Assembly: GCA_958295665.1 (NCBI GenBank) | Contig: OY282558.1 | Coordinates: 29,843,045-29,907,044, forward strand | DNA: 64,000 nt | Source: Tipula vernalis | Taxonomy: Eukaryota > Arthropoda > Insecta > Diptera > Tipulidae | Direction of reading: 5' to 3' | Part shown: positions 10,367 to 33,081 of the stretch, in pieces | Numbering within the stretch: the stretch's first letter is position 1 | Layout of the letters: every line of letters begins with the position of its first letter | The notes under the pieces: generated by a model | Seen by the model: the letters and a program-made list of their open reading frames with translations, nothing else | Databases searched by the model: none | Told to the model about the DNA's origin: nothing | Made by a program: the position numbers and the translations under genes

Positions 10367-12251
10367 TTCTGAACCGGATTGTCCATCACTAGATGACGCT
10401 GATAATTTATCACAGACCCAACTTCTTCAAAGATTAACACATCAATGCCGATACGATCGATTGGAACGGCCAATTACCCGTAAGTGTCTTACATATCAAA
10501 AGATTTTATTTTTCTATCATAATTTATTTAAATTTACTTATCAGTAGGTGAAAATAATACCCGTCTTCCAGTCAATGTGTTCGCCAGAGCCTACATATAT
10601 TTTTTACAAAGTTTAGAGGCACATGATTTAGTAAGTATTTTATAGCTATACATTAAACATACGAGTACAATTTGGGCTAACAGATAAAACTCATATCATT
10701 ATTTTAATTTACTTAGCAATTTAAAATCCATGCATTACTTCAACTACGGTACGTTGATCCACGGCTTGTATTTAAACAAGTGTCACCAAAACGGACGGAA
10801 CCGATTATGGGTGAAAATAGTTTAAAAGAAGCATTGTGGGTGCCACACGTATTTTTCGCAAACGAGCGATCTTCAAGTATTTTGGGTACAAGCGAAAAGG
10901 ATGTTTTAACCTCAGTTTCACCGGATGGTACCGTTATTATATCGTATCGTATACAAGCGACGCTGTATTGCTGGATGAATTTACAAAAATTTCCATTTGA
11001 CGAACAACGCTGTTCAACAATTCTTGAAAGTTGTAAGTGTTTTTAGTAACTTTTAATATATACGTACTAGTTATAATACAGTTACATTTTGCAGGGATGT
11101 ACAACACTTCTGAATTAGTATTGCATTGGGAACAGAAATCCCCTGTAACTTTAGCCCCGGAACTTCATTTGACGGAATACGCACTTTTAAGCATGGTAAC
11201 CAATGAGACTATCATCAATGCAGATCTAAGCGATTTAAGACATGGCGCTTTCGGTAAATATTAAAGAAATATTATACAAAAGCTCATAGAATAATTTTTA
11301 TTGCGAATTTCTATGTACATATATAGCTGGCAACTATAGTTCACTCAGTTTTACGGTTCACTTGGCTCGTGAAATTGGTTTCTATTTAATGGATTATTTC
11401 CTTCCATCTATGATGATAGTTTCCATTTCTTGGGTTTCGTTTTGGCTACAGGCAGATCAATCAGCTCCCCGTATTATGTTAGGAACAAGTACTATGTTAA
11501 CATTTATAACATTGGCATCGGCACAGGGTAAAACATTACCAAAAGTGAGCTACATAAAAGCCTCAGAAATTTGGTTCTTAGGATGTACTGCCTTCATTTT
11601 TGGAAGCCTGGTCGAATTTGCATTTGTCAACACGATATGGCGACGAAAAAAAAATGTCGAATTAAAAAAAGTCAATAGTAAATATATTTTAAAATCGACA
11701 CTAACCCCACGACCGCAACGTCGTGAAATAGGGATCAACAATAATTCGTTACAAAAATCACATTCATGTTCGAGTTTAGATGGACAAACAAATGGCGCAC
11801 ATTTATCATCGAATTATAATAATTATTTGACAGTTCATGTGAGTTAATTAAACTAGCTAGGGCTATGATTTTCAATATTTTAAACATGCGTATTATTTTG
11901 TTGGTATATTTCCAGAGTTTTCCATCGAAATCAAACTTACCAACAATAACAACACAAAGTGTAGACGATTTCATGAATGAAAATGGTACAAATATAAGTA
12001 TAAATATGGAGCCCTCATCCAGTATTACAACACTACCGGTAAACAATCACAATAATAATAATAATAACAACAACAACAACTCGAATAATATATGTAGCCC
12101 AACCCCGTCCCAACAATCTCTACCAATTGGTTGGACAACTATGACGCCGCAACAGATTTCAACGTGGATTGATAAGAGATCACGATTTTTATTTCCAATT
12201 GCATTTTTAATATTTAACATGTTCTACTGGTCATTCGTATCGTTCTTGTAG
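10367..12251 (+). CDS. pHCl-1: pHCl-1-like Cys-loop ligand-gated chloride channel (3' part)
   Basis: Six exons join in frame: 10367-10479, 10545-10630, 10717-11032, 11095-11253, 11327-11838 and 11916-12251, all with GT-AG borders, giving 506 residues plus stop. The 5' end is missing: the first base completes a codon from an upstream exon. The extracellular domain has YVDPRLVFKQ, LWVPHVFFANE and the Cys-loop CWMNLQKFPFDEQRC with 13 residues between cysteines. Transmembrane segments follow: M1 (MDYFLPSMMIVSISWVSFWL), pore-lining M2 (APRIMLGTSTMLTFITLA), M3 (EIWFLGCTAFIFGSLVEFAF) and C-terminal M4 (FLFPIAFLIFNMFYWSFVSF). The proline-containing start of M2 (SAPR) marks an anion channel. The family is pentameric at the plasma membrane; pHCl channels are gated by alkaline pH. 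KKVNSKYILKSTLTPRP after M3 resembles insect pHCl-1. The M3-M4 loop holds a polyasparagine tract. Other insect Cys-loop chloride channels are less likely alternatives. Confidence 0.85.
12047..12092 (+). repeat. (AAT/AAC)n tract encoding polyasparagine
   Basis: A trinucleotide tract inside the last channel exon gives a run of ten or more Asn codons in the cytoplasmic M3-M4 loop. Such tracts are length-variable, so this part of the protein may be polymorphic. Confidence 0.85.
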
Positions 12252-14896: not shown

Positions 14897-17800
14897 TTAC
14901 CTGTTATTTTGTTGGTTGTATTCCTCGCATGTCATATCGCCGTGGATCACGTGGCATTTGAAACAATTATAACTTTCACAGAGTGGACAAGGGTATAAGT
15001 TCCTTCCTTCTGTTTTGTCCACAAACCAAAGACCTTCACATTTTTCCTTTTTACAGAAGAATAAGGTCTCATGTGAATCTTCATCGTCATATTCAAATAA
15101 TTCAACGTTCTTAAAACTAGAAGGAGCTTCTACGATAAACGGTTTTGAATTCGGCATAATTTCTTTATTATTCGTACCAGACTCAGATAAGCTGCTATCT
15201 ATCGCTTCAAATAAAGATGCTATAACATCAACTTCTAATTTAAAATTACATTTAAAAGACTCCGTTTCGAAAAGGCAATTTGGATCTTCAAGAGAAATGG
15301 AAGAGAGCAAACATTGTGGACAGCATAAATGTTGACAGTCCAACTTAAATGCATTTTCATTTGAAATTTACGTGGTTTTGATTTTTTGCCGATATTCACG
15401 TTCTTAGGAGATGGAGGTGAATTTTGACCCATTTTAACAATTTGCCCATCGGGGTCCTGGTTAGGCAGAAAAGCAGCTGGAACTAAATGAAATGTTAAGT
15501 TAAATAAAATGTATGTACATATAATTGAAACGTAATGTAAACAAATATTACCTTTACGTGACATTCGAAGAAGCTCGGAAATCCCTAACATTATCTTGCC
15601 GAGAAAATTGATTTGATGGTGGTGTACCTGTTTTCGACTGATTTACGTTTAAAATAATTAGTGGTTCTAAAACCGGTTTATTAAAATCAGATCTTTCAGA
15701 TTGGTAGCTATTTTGCGCAGAAATGTTAAGTATTTGTGACCTAGTTGCTTGATGAATTACTAAACCTTCGAGTCGTTTATCGCCACGTATACAATAGGCA
15801 GAGACGTCTTGAACGTAGTAAATTACTCGTACTTGGAATTTATTTTCTTCATTAAGATTGGGGGTGTCCTATAAATGGAAAATTTAAAATATTATGTCGG
15901 AATATTATTAAGTTGTTTTAGAGATAGATAACAAATATAGCCGATGATTTCCCTTCTTATTACAGGAAAGTATTAAGTAACATTATAAAAATATAACGAC
16001 CCCTTTTTATTTGAAAATAATTTAGACTAGGCAGATTGTTTAGTATTTAGGATTGTCTGTCTTACGATCTTAAAATTATGATGATAGACCATACAACATG
16101 TCTACGGATTTTGATTTTCACTTTTCCTCAACCAATAAGTTCAGACATGAATCTGATTGCGTCAGATCACATCTTTCTAAAATTATAACAATGAGTGTAA
16201 TTTTTATACGCAAATATCAATAAATTGTTCTTCCTCAACTTAACCTAGCTTACACCGACACTACGAATAAGTTAGAAATCATTCTCGAAAAAAGATAACA
16301 AAAGTAGTTTATTTGATTTCTATGGGGTGCTAATCTCTCAGAAACGGGATCTAAAAATCAGCGAAACGAAAATTTTCCAACTTCTAGACAAAAAAGGTTA
16401 GTTAGCGTATGAAACCGGTATTACCGTAAAGCCGGTTGTGCATCTCGAAGATATCATTTCGACACCCATTTTAGACGCATAATTCCGTGAGATCTCAACT
16501 AATTCGGACGTTAGGGTTGTCGATATAGCAAGCCTAATGCTATCTTGAACAAAGGTTAAATATACAATAAATAATCCGGACAGAGAATCAAACGTTTACA
16601 GAACTCAAAAGTGGTGTCAAACACCATAGGTCAAAAGAACAACACTAGACGGATCAAATAAGCCCAAGGCCACTTTAAAGGAGTACAAAACATGGCAGGA
16701 AAGCTTAAAGGCTATAAAAAGTGAGTCGTTAGATTCGCTTGTACCTTTTAAACAGCTAAACGTAACAAAACGTGACGCACACCACTATACGAAAAACAGA
16801 CATTTTTAAAAGTAAGCCGATTTTACGCGTACAATATTTTATAGCAAAGTATATTTCTTGTAGAAAATGTCAATTTTAAATATAAAAGGTTAGTACTTTT
16901 TCTCCTATTAAATAATATGAAGATGTGTGCAAAAAATAATGCAAAAATAGCAACACATAACACTTCTAAGATTTGATGTTGACATGTTATGAGTTGTATG
17001 GATTGAGTGAGCGGCTGAAGCGTGCTTACGAAACATGCATAATATAACTATTCTCTTTTATATTTTTCTAAACTTTTTATTAAGGTTCATTTAAAAAATG
17101 GAGGTGTGGCCAACACACGACTTTCTTTTACGAACAACGAATTTTGATAAATTTTCTTTTCTTTTATTTTTTGGAAACATTTTGTATTAAGTAGTTCTTG
17201 TAAACCTTATACTTTTTAAGATATTTGCAAAATAAAATTTTCTGGGCCAAGGGAGTGGCCACTTCCGATTAGCCGATTTGGAGTAAAATTCACTGGGACC
17301 TCCCAATTTATCAAAAAAGCTTAAATCTGAAGTTTCAGTTCGATTGGTTAAACTATCTGGGCTGTAGAGAGAACACAGACTGACAGACAGACACCTTTCC
17401 AAACCCACTTTTTCGGACTCAGGGGATCTCAAAACAGATAAATCTCTAAAAATCTCAAGGTCCAAAATTTTTCATGATTACTACACTTTATTTTACCAAC
17501 GTAAAACAAAAGTAATATTTTAGGAAAAACCCATTACAGGATGTAATCGCATTACCGGTATCTCAACAATGCCGTCTTTCAATATATATACATACAAACA
17601 AAACCATTTTCATTTATTCATTTCATAAGCAAAATAAAATTTTGAAAGTATCTATAATATTCTATGACTTTTATTGTTTTAGTTTTATACGTGAATGTGT
17701 TATGAAGAATGTGTTATGAATCCGACTACCTAGAGATCTTAGCAATTCCTTGTTTTTCTTATTTGATCAAGGTCTAATAGTCTGTCTTTGTTTCATGAAA

Positions 17801-18848
17801 ATCGGATGAGTACTTTTCGAATTACTATTTGTTAACCGATATCAACAGCGGGGATATAAGGCATCTCTCTCGCTCTAGTGCTTTGATTGAGTTGAGATGC
17901 TTAAAATGGAGAGAAACCATAGAAAGAAAAAAAAGAAAAAATATTAAAAACTTGATTTTGTTAAATTTTGGGACAATAGGTTGGAGTGGCTGCTTACGCA
18001 CACTTAGACCGGTGACGGTCCATTGTGATTCAATTTTGGGACAATAAATAGTTTATAAGTTTAGACGTTTTGGGAAGCAACCAATGTGGGAAGCTTAACG
18101 TTTTCTTCTAATAATTGTGTTATTAATAGTATTTATTTTTTTGCAAGAGCTCCAGTAATTTTCTTTAGAAAAAATAAAACTTCTAAACTACACCAAATTT
18201 TATCGACCGTACACTTAAAATTTGCACTGAAGCTCAGCCGTTTAAGTGTTAATACCTACAAATTTCGTAAGCTACAAAATAAATCAAAGAAAACCGGGAA
18301 TCACCGAAAATTAAAACGCAAAGAAAATTTTTTTATGATTTTTCCACTTACGCCTACAGCCCTGACTAATGCATGTGTATTTCACATCCCATTAACATCC
18401 GAAAATTATTCTAAAAAACGAGACGATTACATATATTTTAAAGTTGTGTACTGTATTCTTATCTAATTAGATAAGATAAAGTTTGTACTTACGATTAAGT
18501 CCAAAGCAAAATACTGTTCAGGTTCAAATGATGGTACATCCATTATAGATTTAACACAAAAATTCACGTTAATTTTGCTATTGGGTATCTCCAAGTTTAC
18601 CGTAATATTATCACCTTTCCGTAACTCACTTATAAGCGACCAGCAATTATCGTCCAATTCTTTAATATTTTCTTTTTCACATTTGTACGACTCGTTTTCA
18701 AAGCGGTTATTATCGTGATCATAAAGTTGTATGACATAATCCTCCCCTCCAAATTCTCCTCAATTATTTTTAATAATTGTCCTGGGACAATTTTACCTTG
18801 TGTGCCCAGTTTTGTACAAATAGCGTACATTACTTTGTTGGAAGTCAT
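14897..18848 (-). pseudogene. Truncated, frameshifted copy of the HOIL-1-like RBR ligase gene
   Basis: Three exon-like blocks mirror the first three exons of the gene at 22700-26761. Block 1 (18848-18493) starts MTSNKVMYAICTK and ends YFALDLI at a GTAAGT donor. It has a one-base frameshift near 18745; beyond it, NITVNLEIPNSKINVNF matches the intact gene. Block 2 (15868 to about 15552) has YYVQDVSAYCIRGDK and runs into an in-frame TAA just before the donor. Block 3 (15476-14897) has lost the part coding the first RING cysteine pair and is frameshifted there. It then keeps DCQHLCCPQC and the IBR-like LFFCKKEKCEGLWFVDK, and stops at EEYNQQNNR. The NZF finger and the whole main RBR are absent. 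Introns hold unrelated sequence, including 17090-17470 with a CAGACTGACAGACAGACAC tract resembling dispersed insect repeats. It is a dead duplicate. Confidence 0.85.
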
Positions 18849-22699: not shown

Positions 22700-25600
22700 T
22701 TATTTTATGTTTAAAGTTCTATTAACCTTTCGCCCCCACGTAAATTGGGTTTTACACATGCTGCAGTTCATTGATTGGCAGCCACCGTTTTTAACAACAA
22801 TAATCTAGAAATACAATAATTTTTGTGCAAATTCGCAAATTTTGGATTAGATTTCCAACAAAATGATACTTACGTTACACTTGGGGCAATGTTCAGCTTC
22901 ACCGTTTGTCAACATTTGTTCCAATTTTTGTCGGGTTTCAATTCCATTTTTATCCTTAGAGTAAAATATATTTTGCTGATATGTTTTGCAGTTTATTGAT
23001 GGATGACTTGCCTTGCATGAAATACAATTTTCTGTTCGACACGCAGGGCAATTGTATGCATAAGTGTTTTCGGTGTATATCCAAAATCCTTCGCAATTGG
23101 GCACACAGCATTGATAACCGTTCTTAATTTGGGTTTTGCCGACACGCAGAGATATTCCTAAATATCGAGCGTACATATCGGGTGATACAAGCCTTTTGAT
23201 CTCCCGATCTTCTAAAATATTGGTACATCCGTCAAATGGACACTTGATCTCAGGTTCTTCATTAACGGCAATATATTTTTCAATGCAGACTAGGCAGATA
23301 TTGTGTAAACAGCCTCGTAATTGGACTCCATTGTCCGGTTCAATCATGTCAGTACAGATAACGCACTCAAACTCATCAAAGTTTGGTACGAAATCTTCAT
23401 TCTCTTCCAGTTCAATCAAGCGGTAATATTCCATTGCATTAATTTGTTTCGTTTGCATAATAGTATTATTTGTTCGTGAGCAAACCACGCAAATAGCAGT
23501 ATCCGCTAAATTTTCGGTATATGAGCAAATTTCGCATTTCCATGTGGGCTCATTTGGAGGATTTTCTAATCTCGAGTTATTATAAGGATGCACCGAATTA
23601 TGCCGGTTGTATTCTTCACAAGTCATGTTATCATGAATCGCTTGGCATTTGAAACAATTATATGTCTCACAGAGTGGACAAGGATATGTGTTCCTTCCTT
23701 CTGTCTTGTCCACAAACCAAAATCCTTCACATTTTTCCCGTTTACAGTAGAATAATACCTCGTTTGAATCATTATCATTATATTCAAATAACTCTTCCTC
23801 AACCTTCTTAACATTGGATTGAGGTTCTACGATAAATGGTTTTGGCTTCGGCAACATTTTTGTATAATTAGTGCCCGGCTCAGATAAGCTGTTTTCGATC
23901 GCTTCAAATATAGATGCTAAGTCATCAGCTTCAAATTTAAAGTTACACTTGTAAGATCCCATTTTGAAAGGGCAATGTGCATCTTCAAGGTTAGAAAGGC
24001 AGGAGATTAAACATTCTGAACAGCACAAATGTTGGCAGTTCAACTCAATAATATTGACACCCAATTGTTGACAAATATAACATTTAGTCGCTTTTTTATT
24101 GTGATTTTGTTGATTTTTGCGACGATACTTACGTGGCTTTGATTTTTTGGAGATATTCACATTCTTAGGATGTTGCAATGAATTTTGATGCAGAAAATTC
24201 TCCGACGGTTCGACTGCTATCGACGGTTTAACGGTAATATTTTGGTATTTTTCAATATAAATATGTCCATCGTCATAAGGCGGTATTTCAAATCGATTAA
24301 AACTTGTTCCGACCGATAAATTTTCATTATTCTGCTGGATCTTATTCAGAATATTCTTAGGCGTTGATTCGCTTACAATGAAAGGTTCTTCGCGATCGAC
24401 TGGCGGTAAATCAATAGGTGTAAAACTTTGTGGGATCGATGCGTTTTCAGTATTCTGCTGGCTCTTACGCAGAATAGCAGCTGGAACTAAATGAAATAGT
24501 TAAATGAAACGTATAATTAAAACGTAATGAAAATAAAAATTACTGTTGTTTGCAGTACTCGAGGAAGCTCGAAAATCCCTTACATTATCTCCTCGATAAT
24601 ATTGTGCTGATGGTGGTGTAGGATGTCGCATAGATGTTGCAGACCCATCAAACCTATTTTCCAACATGTTGACGTTTCTCGCTTGTAGGTCCTGGTCGAT
24701 TATATTGAACTCAAATTGATTAGTTCGTGCATATTCGTTCATACCATTTGGTCCTTTTTCTGTCAAAATACGTAAATCACCTAAACCGTTTTTTAAATGT
24801 TGCAATTGAAAATCAATTAAATTATTGACTTCAAAACCTGCTACCGATTGATTTACATTTGAAATAACTGGTGGTTCTAAAATAATTTTTTCATCAGTAA
24901 AATCGATTAGAGATTCTTCGAGTGGCGAGAAATTTGCAAATGTCTGACCGGTTGAGCTTGAGGGTGTTATATAAGTAGCAGAATTTGGGCCATTCGATTG
25001 CGGCGGGTTGTAATTTGTATTATTATTTGGTGCCGGGGGCTGGTAGGTTTTTTGCGTAGAGTTAAATGTTTGTACTCCAATTGTTTGATTAATTATAGGT
25101 AGTAGTTCAAGTACTTTATCGCCACGTATACAAAAGGCAGAAACGTCTTGAACGTAGTACTTCATTCGTATTTGGAATTTTAAGTCTGCATTAAGAGAAT
25201 TGTCCTGTAAATAGAAAATTTAAAATATTATTGCTTTTTGATAAGGCTTTGTGAATAAATAATATAGTTCAACAATTTCCCTTCCTTAGGAGTAGTAAGA
25301 AGTTAAGCATTAATTTAATACACAACATAAATGCTTTGGTCGGATTTAAAATTTCACATTTCCTCAATGAATATTTTCAGAGTAGCTCCGATTGCATCTT
25401 ATTAAAACTTTCTAAAAGAACTACTCCGAGTGTACGCAAACGAACTGAGATTCTTCAAGTTAACAGAGTTAGTGCTGGCTAAGGAGATTCCGAGATCTTA
25501 CGAATACGTCAGAATCACTTCTTGAAGACGTCTTAGAACGGAACCTCAATTCATATTTCAAGTCACCAATGCGTTTGATTTTCACCAATCGGATTTATTT

Positions 25601-26761
25601 AAACCCGGAAGCATGCAAATATTTTAACTAAACGTTATAAAAATGTATTAATCAGATGACTGCCTTTCCTTGAAAAGAAGAACTGGTCCTTCTATTCTGA
25701 TTTATTTCTTTTAACGAAATTTTAGTTGTGAAAAATAAAATTGAATAAAAGGCCAGTCCTTCTATACTGAAGTTAGGGGAGTCCGTTTCAAGTTGAAATA
25801 TTCTAACAAGTTTACTAATATTTATTCAAAATAAATTCTCCTTGGCTCTGGATTATTTAAAATTAGAAATATATAACTGTAACACAAATAGCTCGTAAAT
25901 TTTGATAAAATTTTGTAAAAATAAAATTTATAAAATAAAAGCAAAGTTCAATAGAGAAAATAACGATTTGATTTCAGTTTGTATGAATTTCCAACATAAC
26001 AAACAAAAATTTTTGCTCGTTATGTTGTAAATTCATAAAAACCTTTAATTCAAATGTAAAAAGTTTTTTGATTTTTGTAGTGAACCATTTTAGTTACGCT
26101 ACGTTGGTAAACCTGGTGAAATTTTTGTTCAGAGTTGAGAACAATTCAACTTTTTATCAAAAATGTCCCATGTACGCACCTTTAGGCAAAACCCATTTCC
26201 CCATCGTAAAAAAAAAAATGGGAATCACCGAAAATTATAACGAAAAAAACTTTAAAGAATGTGCATACAATATATTTTTATTACAAATTTTAATTTACTA
26301 TACACACCATGAACGTGTGAAAATGATTCTAAAAAGAAAAGATTGTTTTTTCTGCTTATCTAACTAGATAGGGTAAAATTACTTACGACTAATTCCAGTG
26401 CAAAAAATATTCCAGCTCCGAGCGACGGTATATCACCAATAGATATAACACAAAAATTCACGTTAATCTTGCTATTGGGTATCTCCAAGTTTACCGTAAT
26501 ATTATCACCTTTTTTTAACTCACTTATCAGCGCCCAATCTTTATCGTTCAATTCTTTAATAATTTCTTTCTCGCATTTGTACAAATCTTTCCCAAAGCGT
26601 TTATTATTGCGATCAAAAATTTTGATCACATAACTTTCTTTAAACTTTTCCGAAATTATTTTTAATAATTGTCCTGGGACAATTTCATGTGGGGTGCCAA
26701 CAATTTGATTGGTTATTGCACCCGATTTTATACAAATGGCGTACATTGCTTTAGAAGTCAT
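22700..26761 (-). CDS. HOIL-1/RBCK1-like RBR E3 ligase, CYLD-like N-terminus, extra RING-IBR
   Basis: Four exons join in frame (26761-26387, 25204-24544, 24480-22874, 22804-22700), giving 915 residues. The start MTSKAMYAIC is shared with the neighbouring pseudogene copy. Residues 1-160 resemble the CYLD N-terminus and first CAP-Gly (GAGIFFALELV, then YYVQDVSAFCIRGDKVLEL) but lack the usual GKNDG groove. Residues 160-470 are a low-complexity linker. An extra RING (C479, C482, C494, H496, C498/C499, C502, C515) and IBR (591-633) follow. An NZF ubiquitin-binding finger (W659, C661, C664, C676, C679) has one residue more than the usual spacing. The main RING1 is C718-C764, IBR 803-843 and RING2 877-904, with candidate catalytic C890 in GGC. 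RBR ligases pass ubiquitin from E2 to this Cys. RING2 lacks the His two residues later and ends without the second zinc pair, as if it were an accessory subunit. HOIL-1 similarity is strongest in 655-915. Function is inferred. Confidence 0.85.
25984..26037. repeat. Hairpin, about 18-bp arms
   Basis: ATGAATTTCCAACATAAC pairs with GTTATGTTGTAAATTCAT (one difference) across a short AT loop, inside intron 1 of the HOIL-1-like gene. It may be a small MITE. Confidence 0.6.
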
Positions 26762-30235: not shown

Positions 30236-33081
30236 ATGGAGAAATCGCATTTCGGGATTTGTATTCAGGAATGCCAAGCTTATTTCGAACGGGATATTAA
30301 TGACCAGCAGCTCTTATTACAAGGTGCGCTAGTACAGATTATCGAGGAAGATAATTCAGGTGTAAGCACCATTAAGGTATTTTACGTGGATTCAACGAGA
30401 GCATTATCTTTAATTGATAAGAATTATTTGATCGAACAAAAAAATGTTCAAAAAGTTCATTTGAAATTATTTAGATTTCTGATATCAGTCCAACCGGCCT
30501 CTGAACGTTCTCAATTGCTTGCAAAGGCAGATATACTGTGTGATTTAAGAAATCATAAACAATTTCTTTTAGATAAACAATTTTTGAAATATTTCGAAAA
30601 TATTATATGTCAATTGATATACATCGGGGAAGTACCTGAATTGGGTGTTGGTGATTTTATAGGCATCAAATTGATGGTAAATTTATTTATTTTTTCTTGA
30701 AATTTTTCTAATTATCTAAACCTAAAGGAAGACGCAATTAATTAGAGTAATTACATATCTCAAAAAGTACCTACTTTTTTTAATTTTTTCAGAATTGCAG
30801 CTTACCGCTTATAATGGTCGGTTCACAAAAAGACTTCGCCCCAAAATATATCGGCGATTTACAGGATTCGTTAATAATATCGGCTCTCGAATTCTGTAAA
30901 TTTTATATAAAAGAAATTCGGCAGACCACTGGCAACGTAGTCCTGAAAGCGCAACAATCAGGCCCAAAAGCCTACATGTGCAGCAAATGCAAAGCTTCTG
31001 ATCATATAATACATTTTCGGGCTTGTCCACACAACATGTGTAAAGATTGTCTGATTGAAAAATTTAAGTTAGGGCAAAATCTTGAAATAACCTGTGGATA
31101 TCGTTTTTTTCAAGATCAATCATGTGAAAAAATTATAAATTTGGAACATTTTAAATTCCTGTATCCGGAGTTATCCGAAATTTTTAACCAGATTAAAAAA
31201 AAATTACGGAAATTTTGTTATAAATGCTTAACAAAAGAAATTGATAACACGGGAAATGTTCTACCAATTAGTGACTGTTTACATTCTATATGTAGATCAT
31301 GTGCTTTAGATTCATTGACATGTGAGCCAAAGGACTACTGCCGGTTCTTGATGGATAATGGTGATGAATGTAAAGCCGCAATTCAAGACAAGTATTTAAA
31401 AAAGATCTTGTCATCGGAAGACCTGGCCGCTTACGAGGAGCGAAAATTTGTCCATATTTTGGAATCGACTCCGAATAGTCGCCGCTGCAAAACACCAAAT
31501 TGCAAGTATTTTTGGATTGTTGATGTTAATACGCCTTATACATCTTATTTTTGCAAATTATGCAAGAACTATAATTGTCTAAAATGTAATGCCGTACATA
31601 ACGTCTCGTGCAAAGAATATGAACGGCAAATTTTAGATGGGTCGGATGAAGTAAAGAAAAAAGAACTGCTCGACAGGTTAAGCAAGGATGAAATTGCGGA
31701 CCATGACTTAGTTCGTCAAGGTAAGGTGGAAAAATATTCGGAAGCTGAAAAGTTTCGGCTTCTTCGATCAAAATATTTAAACTACGATGAGGCGGATTTA
31801 TTGTGGGCGATTCGACAAAGTGATGAAATGTCTATCATTGAAAAATCCTTGAATATCGAGTGCAATTTTTGTGGTGAAACTTTTTCGCACAATAATATTT
31901 TTGGAATGATCACCTGTGAGCACACATTTTGCATGAATTGTGCTAAAACTTATTTTACGATACAAATTACTGAAAAAACCATTCGGGATTGCATTTGCCC
32001 TGCGTGTAAATTACCGAAATTAGACGATGATAGCAGCGAATCTGAGTATTTCGGATTAATTGGAGCTTACTTAAAAAACATTTTAGAAGCAAAAATTTAC
32101 GAAATTTTTGACCGTAAAACGAGAGATAGAGCGCTTTCTCGGCTTCAAAATTTTGCGTGGTGTGTAAAATGCGTAAATGGATTCGAGGTAAATCCCAATC
32201 GGGCAAATGCTACTTGTACAGAATGCAAGTCTGTTTTTTGTATTAAATGTTACGAACCCGTAAGTATTGCTTAAATTTTTAGTCGTTTATATTATTGTTT
32301 TGATTGTGCTTTTTGTGTACAGTGGCAAGCCCAGCATGAAGGCCTTTCTTGCGATTTATTTAAAACGTGGAAAGATGAAAATAATCCGCAAAATCAATCT
32401 GAAGGTGTTATGAACTATTTAGAGAAAAATGGCATTGAATGCCCAGCACCAACCTGTAAATTCAAATATTCTTTGGCTAAGTAAGGATCATTAATGAATA
32501 GACTTCAAAATAATTTGTGTGCTGATATCTTAGAATTTTTGCTTTTTAGGGGTGGTTGTCTTCATTTCACCTGCACCCAGTGTTCGTATCAATTCTGTTT
32601 TGGGTGCAGACAACCAATGCTGGCCGGAGCTAAATGCACGAAATACAATGATTGTGCCACCAGAGGACTTCATGCGCATCATCCACGAAATTGTTTATTT
32701 TTTCTACGTGATTGTGCAGTCGCATCACTCGAAGGCTTACTAAAAAATGCTGGTATAAATTTCACGGGAATACCGCAAAATGGAGGAATTTGTCAAATTC
32801 CGATTCAAAAAGAAATGCCCGGGAAAATGATCGATTGCTTATGCGAAAAACCAACCGTCAACGAAAATATTGGATTGTGCGAGCAGCACTACAAAGAAGG
32901 TTTGGTGGATTTAATATTTAAATCAAAAATTGATCCAGTTGATATTTTGGATTTGGGCGAGTCAGTCGGGGAATTAACTCGAAATCATGTTGCGCTTCCG
33001 GCTCGTTTGGCCACCGACACCGATGCCACTTACCGCGACAAATGTGTGGCCCAGATTAAACAGCAAATACCCTTTGCTTAA
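30236..33081 (+). CDS. HOIP/LUBEL-like RBR-LDD E3 ligase with CYLD-like N-terminus
   Basis: Four exons join in frame (30236-30676, 30793-32259, 32323-32480, 32550-33081), giving 865 residues. Residues 1-150 resemble the CYLD N-terminus and a degenerate CAP-Gly strand pair (YIGEVPELGVGDFIGIKLM). Two extra RING-like modules (C210-C233; C289 onward) and an IBR (379-423) precede the main RBR: RING1 504-552, IBR 604-646 and RING2 676-717. RING2 holds GGCLHFTCTQC with catalytic Cys C692 and His H694. The C-terminal 150 residues match the HOIP linear-chain-determining domain (LHAHHPRNCLFFLRD, GLCEQHYKEGLVDLI, final QQIPFA). In HOIP this domain positions acceptor ubiquitin so that Met1-linked chains form in NF-kB/IMD-type signalling. 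The PUB, NZF and UBA parts of HOIP/LUBEL are not seen. The first RING2 zinc pair is C-x4-C, not C-x2-C. The gene is divergent from the HOIL-1-like gene 3.5 kb away. Linear-ubiquitin activity is inferred. Confidence 0.9.

Follow-up and report, generated by a model that had tools for sequence, protein, structure and literature searches.

The window, that is the whole stretch of 64,000 nucleotides analysed (contig OY282558.1 of the dipteran Tipula vernalis; AT-rich, 31% G+C; the assembly comprises 340 contigs and 1.27 Gb), contains two divergent genes lying 3.5 kb apart, here termed gene A and gene B, along with a broken partial copy of the latter (Table 1). Gene A has four exons, with splicing modelled from GT/AG junctions, and its product combines an N-terminal head, a middle part of HOIL-1L type and a tail of HOIP/LUBEL type. 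Elsewhere in the window, open frames at 11290-12251 on the forward strand have, by eye, the look of a partial Cys-loop ligand-gated chloride channel.

Table 1. Features of gene A, gene B and the broken copy, in window positions
Feature	Position	Strand	Basis
Gene A, 865 residues and stop	30236-33081; exons 30236-30676, 30793-32259, 32323-32480, 32550-33081	+	GT/AG at junctions; stop ends at 33081
Gene A exon 1: CYLD-N-like region and first part of CAP-Gly-like domain, residues 1-147	30236-30676	+	Family profile
Gene A, remainder of CAP-Gly-like domain at start of exon 2, residues 148-185	30793-30906	+	Ten-row alignment; shared donor
Gene A, extra RING-like finger, residues about 207-262	30970-31137	+	Cys/His spacing; weak BLAST match to HOIL-type RING1
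Gene A, HOIL-1L-type RING1-IBR without HOIL RING2, residues about 286-427	31207-31632	+	PDB 8eaz, 7yui
Gene A, tentative UBA2-like stretch ahead of RING1, residues about 452-500	31705-31851	+	
Gene A, HOIP RING1, residues 502-556	31855-32019	+	5edv alignment
Gene A, HOIP IBR, residues about 585-650, split by intron 32260-32322	32104-32364	+	Pfam PF01485
Gene A, HOIP RING2, residues 672-718, split by intron 32481-32549	32428-32637	+	Pfam PF22191
Gene A, catalytic-position codon C692	32557-32559	+	Within RING2
Gene A, LDD, residues 749-865	32728-33078	+	Pfam PF18091 at 749-833, over cut-off
Gene B, divergent neighbour, 917 aa (modelled)	22700-26761; exons 26761-26387, 25204-24544, 24486-22874, 22804-22700	-	
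Broken partial copy of gene B	14906-18848; head pieces 18848-18448, later pieces 15892-14906	-	tblastn pieces

Domain composition of genes A and B

A preliminary description of the locus had assigned the last third of the gene A protein to a HOIP/LUBEL-type RING1-IBR-RING2-LDD unit running to the final residues, with GGC-x-H (C692, H694) and LFFLRD in place, and this assignment was upheld. Residues 503-864 recovered the human HOIP RBR-LDD (5edv) with an E-value of 3.2e-87, covering 3-364 of the 365 residues submitted, and the Pfam models IBR_1, IBR and LDD (PF18091) all scored over their cut-offs. The GGCLH motif occupies residues 690-694 and FFLRD residues 739-743, with C692, H694 and D743 (of LFFLRD) at the spacing of HOIP, in which their counterparts are C885, H887 and D936. 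In a 12-row tree the HOIP/LUBEL rows, including gene A, were split from the HOIL-1L rows, including gene B, with support of 100/100, the branching within the HOIP group being without resolution. Read from its sequence, the tail of gene A is thus a complete LUBEL/HOIP RBR-LDD. A single departure is seen in the first knuckle of RING2, which is CX4C (C676, C681; CPAPTC) and not the CXXC of HOIP; zinc binding may survive this change. The stretch ahead of RING1 is UBA2-like only tentatively, because its score of 41 is exceeded by the best of 1000 shuffles (50). A Pfam search of gene A admitting E-values of up to 1 recovered no NZF, B-box or PUB domain, except for a B-box-like match (E 0.02) inside the IBR.

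The middle of gene A matched the RING1-IBR of human HOIL-1L (8eaz, E 1e-13; 7yui, E 7.2e-13) and 31 of 31 HOIL-type proteins (E 2.9e-15 to 3.0e-10). No HOIL RING2 was found after this IBR, the 8eaz match stopping behind it; what follows is the UBA2-like stretch and then the HOIP RING1. Gene B shows a related layout, in which the same kind of head is followed by a RING-like finger with an IBR, an NZF-like finger recognized by eye and an RBR of the HOIL-1L type that matches 8eaz with an E-value of 6.3e-41 and has C892 at the catalytic position. Its model may end without the final HOIL residues; visual inspection of 2 kb of downstream sequence did not reveal them. Pfam recovered no ubiquitin-like domain in either gene. 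The broken copy of gene B has frame breaks, and no RBR end was found for it. The preliminary description, which had recognized the two extremities of gene A, was incomplete in that it missed the HOIL-1L-type RING1-IBR, the UBA2-like stretch, gene B and the extension of the CAP-Gly-like domain into exon 2.

The N-terminal head and its relation to CYLD

The likeness of the N-terminus to that of CYLD with its first CAP-Gly domain, also proposed in that description, is borne out through a family profile of ten rows and not by gene A alone. Exon 1 of gene A by itself recovered no significant relative in Pfam or PDB. A genome search with it returned 11 places including gene A, nine of the ten others stopping at query residue 145 or 146; the first exon of gene B was not among them. 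Nine places (L038-L046) were read, and these, together with A and B and minus the near-duplicate L039, make up the ten-row alignment A3. An HMM of A3 scored 37.4 bits on human CYLD 1-304 (best of 1000 shuffles 7.1), and hhalign matched A3 to CYLD 20-201 with a probability of 93.7, P 1.9e-7 and a score of 50.6, against 19.9 for the best of 150 shuffles. A family profile built without A and B gave 39.9 bits for human CYLD 1-208, the best of 1000 shuffles reaching 6.2; for gene A it gave 79.9 bits (10.1 for the best of 1000 shuffles) and for gene B 64.3 bits (best shuffle 8.9), while one built without gene B scored 68.5 bits on the gene B head. Because a profile of the pre-CAP-Gly part alone finds CYLD 1-123 with 30.8 bits, where 1000 shuffles gave 11.5 at most, the head resembles CYLD's own N-terminal region and not the CAP-Gly domain only; on CYLD CAP-Gly1 this profile scored -1.2 bits. 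In the human CYLD sequence used as query, K33 of the 1-123 part is consistent with a variant given in PMC8633398, and the letters of the CAP-Gly domain match 1whl.

A profile of A and B alone fails to recover CYLD, scoring 0.1 bits where the best shuffle scored 12.0; that of the four RBR-linked rows scored 10.4 bits on it (best shuffle 7.1), and by HMM CYLD CAP-Gly1 by itself gave a non-significant 3.3 bits, below the 5.2 of the best shuffle. Comparison with the general CAP-Gly model, which the preliminary description had proposed as a check, came out divided: Pfam CAP_GLY (PF01302) matched five of the ten family rows when E-values of up to 1 were admitted, the best being 2e-5, and did not match gene A itself, human CYLD CAP-Gly1 hitting the same model at 5.5e-13. 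A PDB search with the head profile returned no CAP-Gly chain, and on reading the alignment no GKNDG, the CAP-Gly signature that this genome's CLIP-190 and p150 display, was evident in the heads of A and B. An AlphaFold2 prediction made on exon 1 of gene A only, with a two-row alignment, had a pLDDT of 38.7, too low to inform. The family HMM of the head had no match in 36 HOIP/HOIL proteins. In sum, the profile comparisons support the head of gene A as a divergent homologue of the CYLD N-terminal region and first CAP-Gly.

The border between exons 1 and 2 of gene A falls inside the CAP-Gly-like domain. In 8 of the 12 head copies (A, B, L038, L039, L040, L044, L046 and the broken copy) a GT donor, placed between two codons, comes directly after one and the same residue of the alignment; in the remaining four (L041, L042, L043 and L045) there is no GT at that residue and no intron at the border, and the reading continues into a readable CAP-Gly-like second half. 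Because the residue and phase at which the donor splits the domain are common to these eight copies, exon 1 belongs with exon 2. In L040, a single open frame of 323 residues reaching the end of the locus includes both the end of the CAP-Gly-like domain and a RING. The human CYLD position that matches the donor of the heads is presumably 168/169, inside the interval of codons 156-203. Between these two codons lies the exon 4/5 border of human CYLD, placed at 190 by a table of PMC8633398, the text of which disagrees on 190.

Head-bearing, RBR and CYLD genes across the genome

A search of the genome with the HOIL-1L RBR of a sand fly recovered 63 matches, among them B, the middle of A and, with 72% and 81% identity to the query, the canonical HOIL-1L at C1:227.81 Mb. 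The heads L039 (227.75 Mb), L046 (110.13 Mb), L044 (72.33 Mb) and L040 (72.32 Mb) are each followed on their own strand by a HOIL-type RBR, such that, counting A and B, RBR domains follow 6 of the 12 heads. Behind L038, L041, L042, L043 and L045 this search gave no RBR match on the strand of the head up to the next one. The head-plus-RBR layout, an architecture that the preliminary description did not know of, is no one-off but forms a family in this genome, and with these further head-bearing genes the unusual combination in gene A looks genuine. Among the heads without a ligase part, L041 and L043 (C1:41.18 Mb) have a Pro-rich stretch followed by CaaX-like tails (CSIM, CIIM), and L045 (C1:223.70 Mb) continues, by eye, into hydrophobic membrane-like segments. 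The RBR-less head gene L042 (forward strand) and a HOIL-like RBR gene on the reverse strand (C1:241911598-241914281) face each other with their 3' ends.

Two further sets of HOIL-like genes were encountered. One, L036 with C1:59.14-59.27 Mb, consists of near-identical units in tandem; every unit has a RING together with a HOIL-like RING1-IBR, and five successive IBR matches have a spacing of 1305 bp. The other, at C2:28.05-28.34 Mb, contains ten HOIL-like RBR or RING2 matches, most with a well-kept HOIL C-terminus, and is a second HOIL-type expansion.

The Pfam LDD model matched gene A and one other gene in the genome, the canonical LUBEL at C1:166.05 Mb, which shares 182 identities with gene A over 422 aligned columns; among the 12 heads, gene A is the only head-bearing gene with an LDD. 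The last LDD stretch of the canonical LUBEL (L033-L035, C1:166047209-166047584, reverse strand) is present in two tandem versions, of which one passes the Pfam cut-off and the other falls short of it; these could be alternative last exons. A separate CYLD lies at C1:54943775-54944842, with 52% identity to the human USP domain, and a CAP-Gly-like exon is discernible by eye ahead of its USP region. We infer a history in which a CYLD-type head was joined to a duplicate of HOIL-1L near the canonical gene, the combination spread, and a LUBEL tail was added behind the HOIL RING1-IBR in gene A.

Possible function and comparison with known systems

These observations make it fairly likely that gene A encodes a chimeric and probably active Met1-chain ligase that is aimed by a CYLD-type docking module. 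By analogy with HOIP biochemistry, its RING1 would take the E2~Ub, the ubiquitin would pass to C692 of RING2, and the LDD with H694 and D743 would place the acceptor Met1, such that Met1 chains are formed. In studies of human CYLD, CAP-Gly1 is described as binding a helical peptide motif (PMC13376213), and CAP-Gly1 and 2 as aiding microtubule binding, with ubiquitin binding by CAP-Gly1 undetectable (PMC8511506). By extension from such work the head of gene A probably docks on peptide motifs and not on ubiquitin, and would in this way direct the ligase to the sites of CYLD or of further proteins that bear the head, including the head-only paralogues. The HOIL-type RING1-IBR lacking a RING2 is probably concerned with regulation or partner binding, and the likeliest partner would be gene B. 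More tentatively, one might envisage that a CYLD-type head became fused to ligases of HOIL-1L type in a single lineage of insects, with the LUBEL tail in gene A yielding a single-chain HOIL/HOIP ligase, and that these writers share the docking sites of the eraser, competition between them setting linear-chain signalling.

A different emphasis, which we regard as rather unlikely, would make gene A a competitor instead of a re-aimed ligase: its head would block the docking sites of CYLD so that Met1/K63 chains persist, the head-only paralogues would do likewise, and the ligase would be secondary. The five intact-looking heads that have no downstream RBR match, two of them with CaaX-like tails, speak for such a role; however, the tail of gene A keeps its catalytic residues and LDD, for which a pure competitor would have no need. 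Still less probable is that gene A is inactive, as a chimeric remnant or pseudo-ligase. The CPAPTC knuckle of RING2 and the broken copy of gene B nearby could be taken in this sense, but the frame is open over four exons, the match to HOIP extends over the full RBR-LDD, and C692, H694 and D743 are all retained.

Other alternatives concern the head itself. It could in principle be a generic CAP-Gly or SH3-like domain without specific kinship to CYLD, given that it has CAP-Gly-like motifs in common with KIF13 (12.2 bits, E 0.0057) and that hhalign against a CAP-Gly set gave P 2.3e-7, a value that comes without a shuffle control. This appears improbable in view of the pre-CAP-Gly part, which finds the N-terminal region of CYLD and scores below zero on CAP-Gly1. 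That exon 1 is a separate gene, joined to the ligase only by splicing that is itself a model, can hardly be sustained, as the border cuts through the CAP-Gly-like domain with residue and phase shared between copies, L040 carries the end of that domain and a RING in one frame, and gene B shows the same layout.

For the comparison of gene A with known systems, the domain lists of HOIP and LUBEL were those of PMC5090701. Gene A resembles HOIP (RNF31) and Drosophila LUBEL (CG11321) in its RING1-IBR-RING2-LDD with the catalytic Cys and His and, tentatively, in the UBA-like stretch ahead of RING1; unlike them it bears a head of CYLD type together with a RING1-IBR of HOIL type, and the B-box, NZF and PUB domains were not found by Pfam. 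With HOIL-1L (RBCK1) the middle of gene A shares the RING1-IBR and gene B an entire RBR whose catalytic position is occupied by a Cys, whereas gene A is without the HOIL RING2, and both genes bear a CYLD-type head and no Pfam ubiquitin-like domain. With CYLD, gene A shares, by family profile, the N-terminal region and first CAP-Gly (CYLD 20-201), in contrast to the second and third CAP-Gly and the USP domain (UCH), which Pfam did not find in it.

We found no report of a protein combining CAP-Gly and RBR domains in the open-licence literature. PMC5090701 describes Drosophila as having HOIP (LUBEL) without HOIL-1L or SHARPIN and a CYLD with a single CAP-Gly, and reports that LUBEL RBR-C bound CYLD in pull-downs; in mammals, according to the same source, the adaptor SPATA2 links HOIP and CYLD. 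A ligase that carries the N-terminal module of the eraser would, if true, be a genetic version of the SPATA2-type link between writer and eraser, and gene A would make the role of the CYLD N-terminal region testable. Finally, the HOIP and HOIL-1L parts that cooperate within LUBAC (PMC5090701) are in gene A placed on one chain, with a HOIL-type gene adjoining, whereas LUBAC is composed of HOIP, HOIL-1L and SHARPIN. This arrangement would provide a natural test of which LUBAC pieces need proximity.
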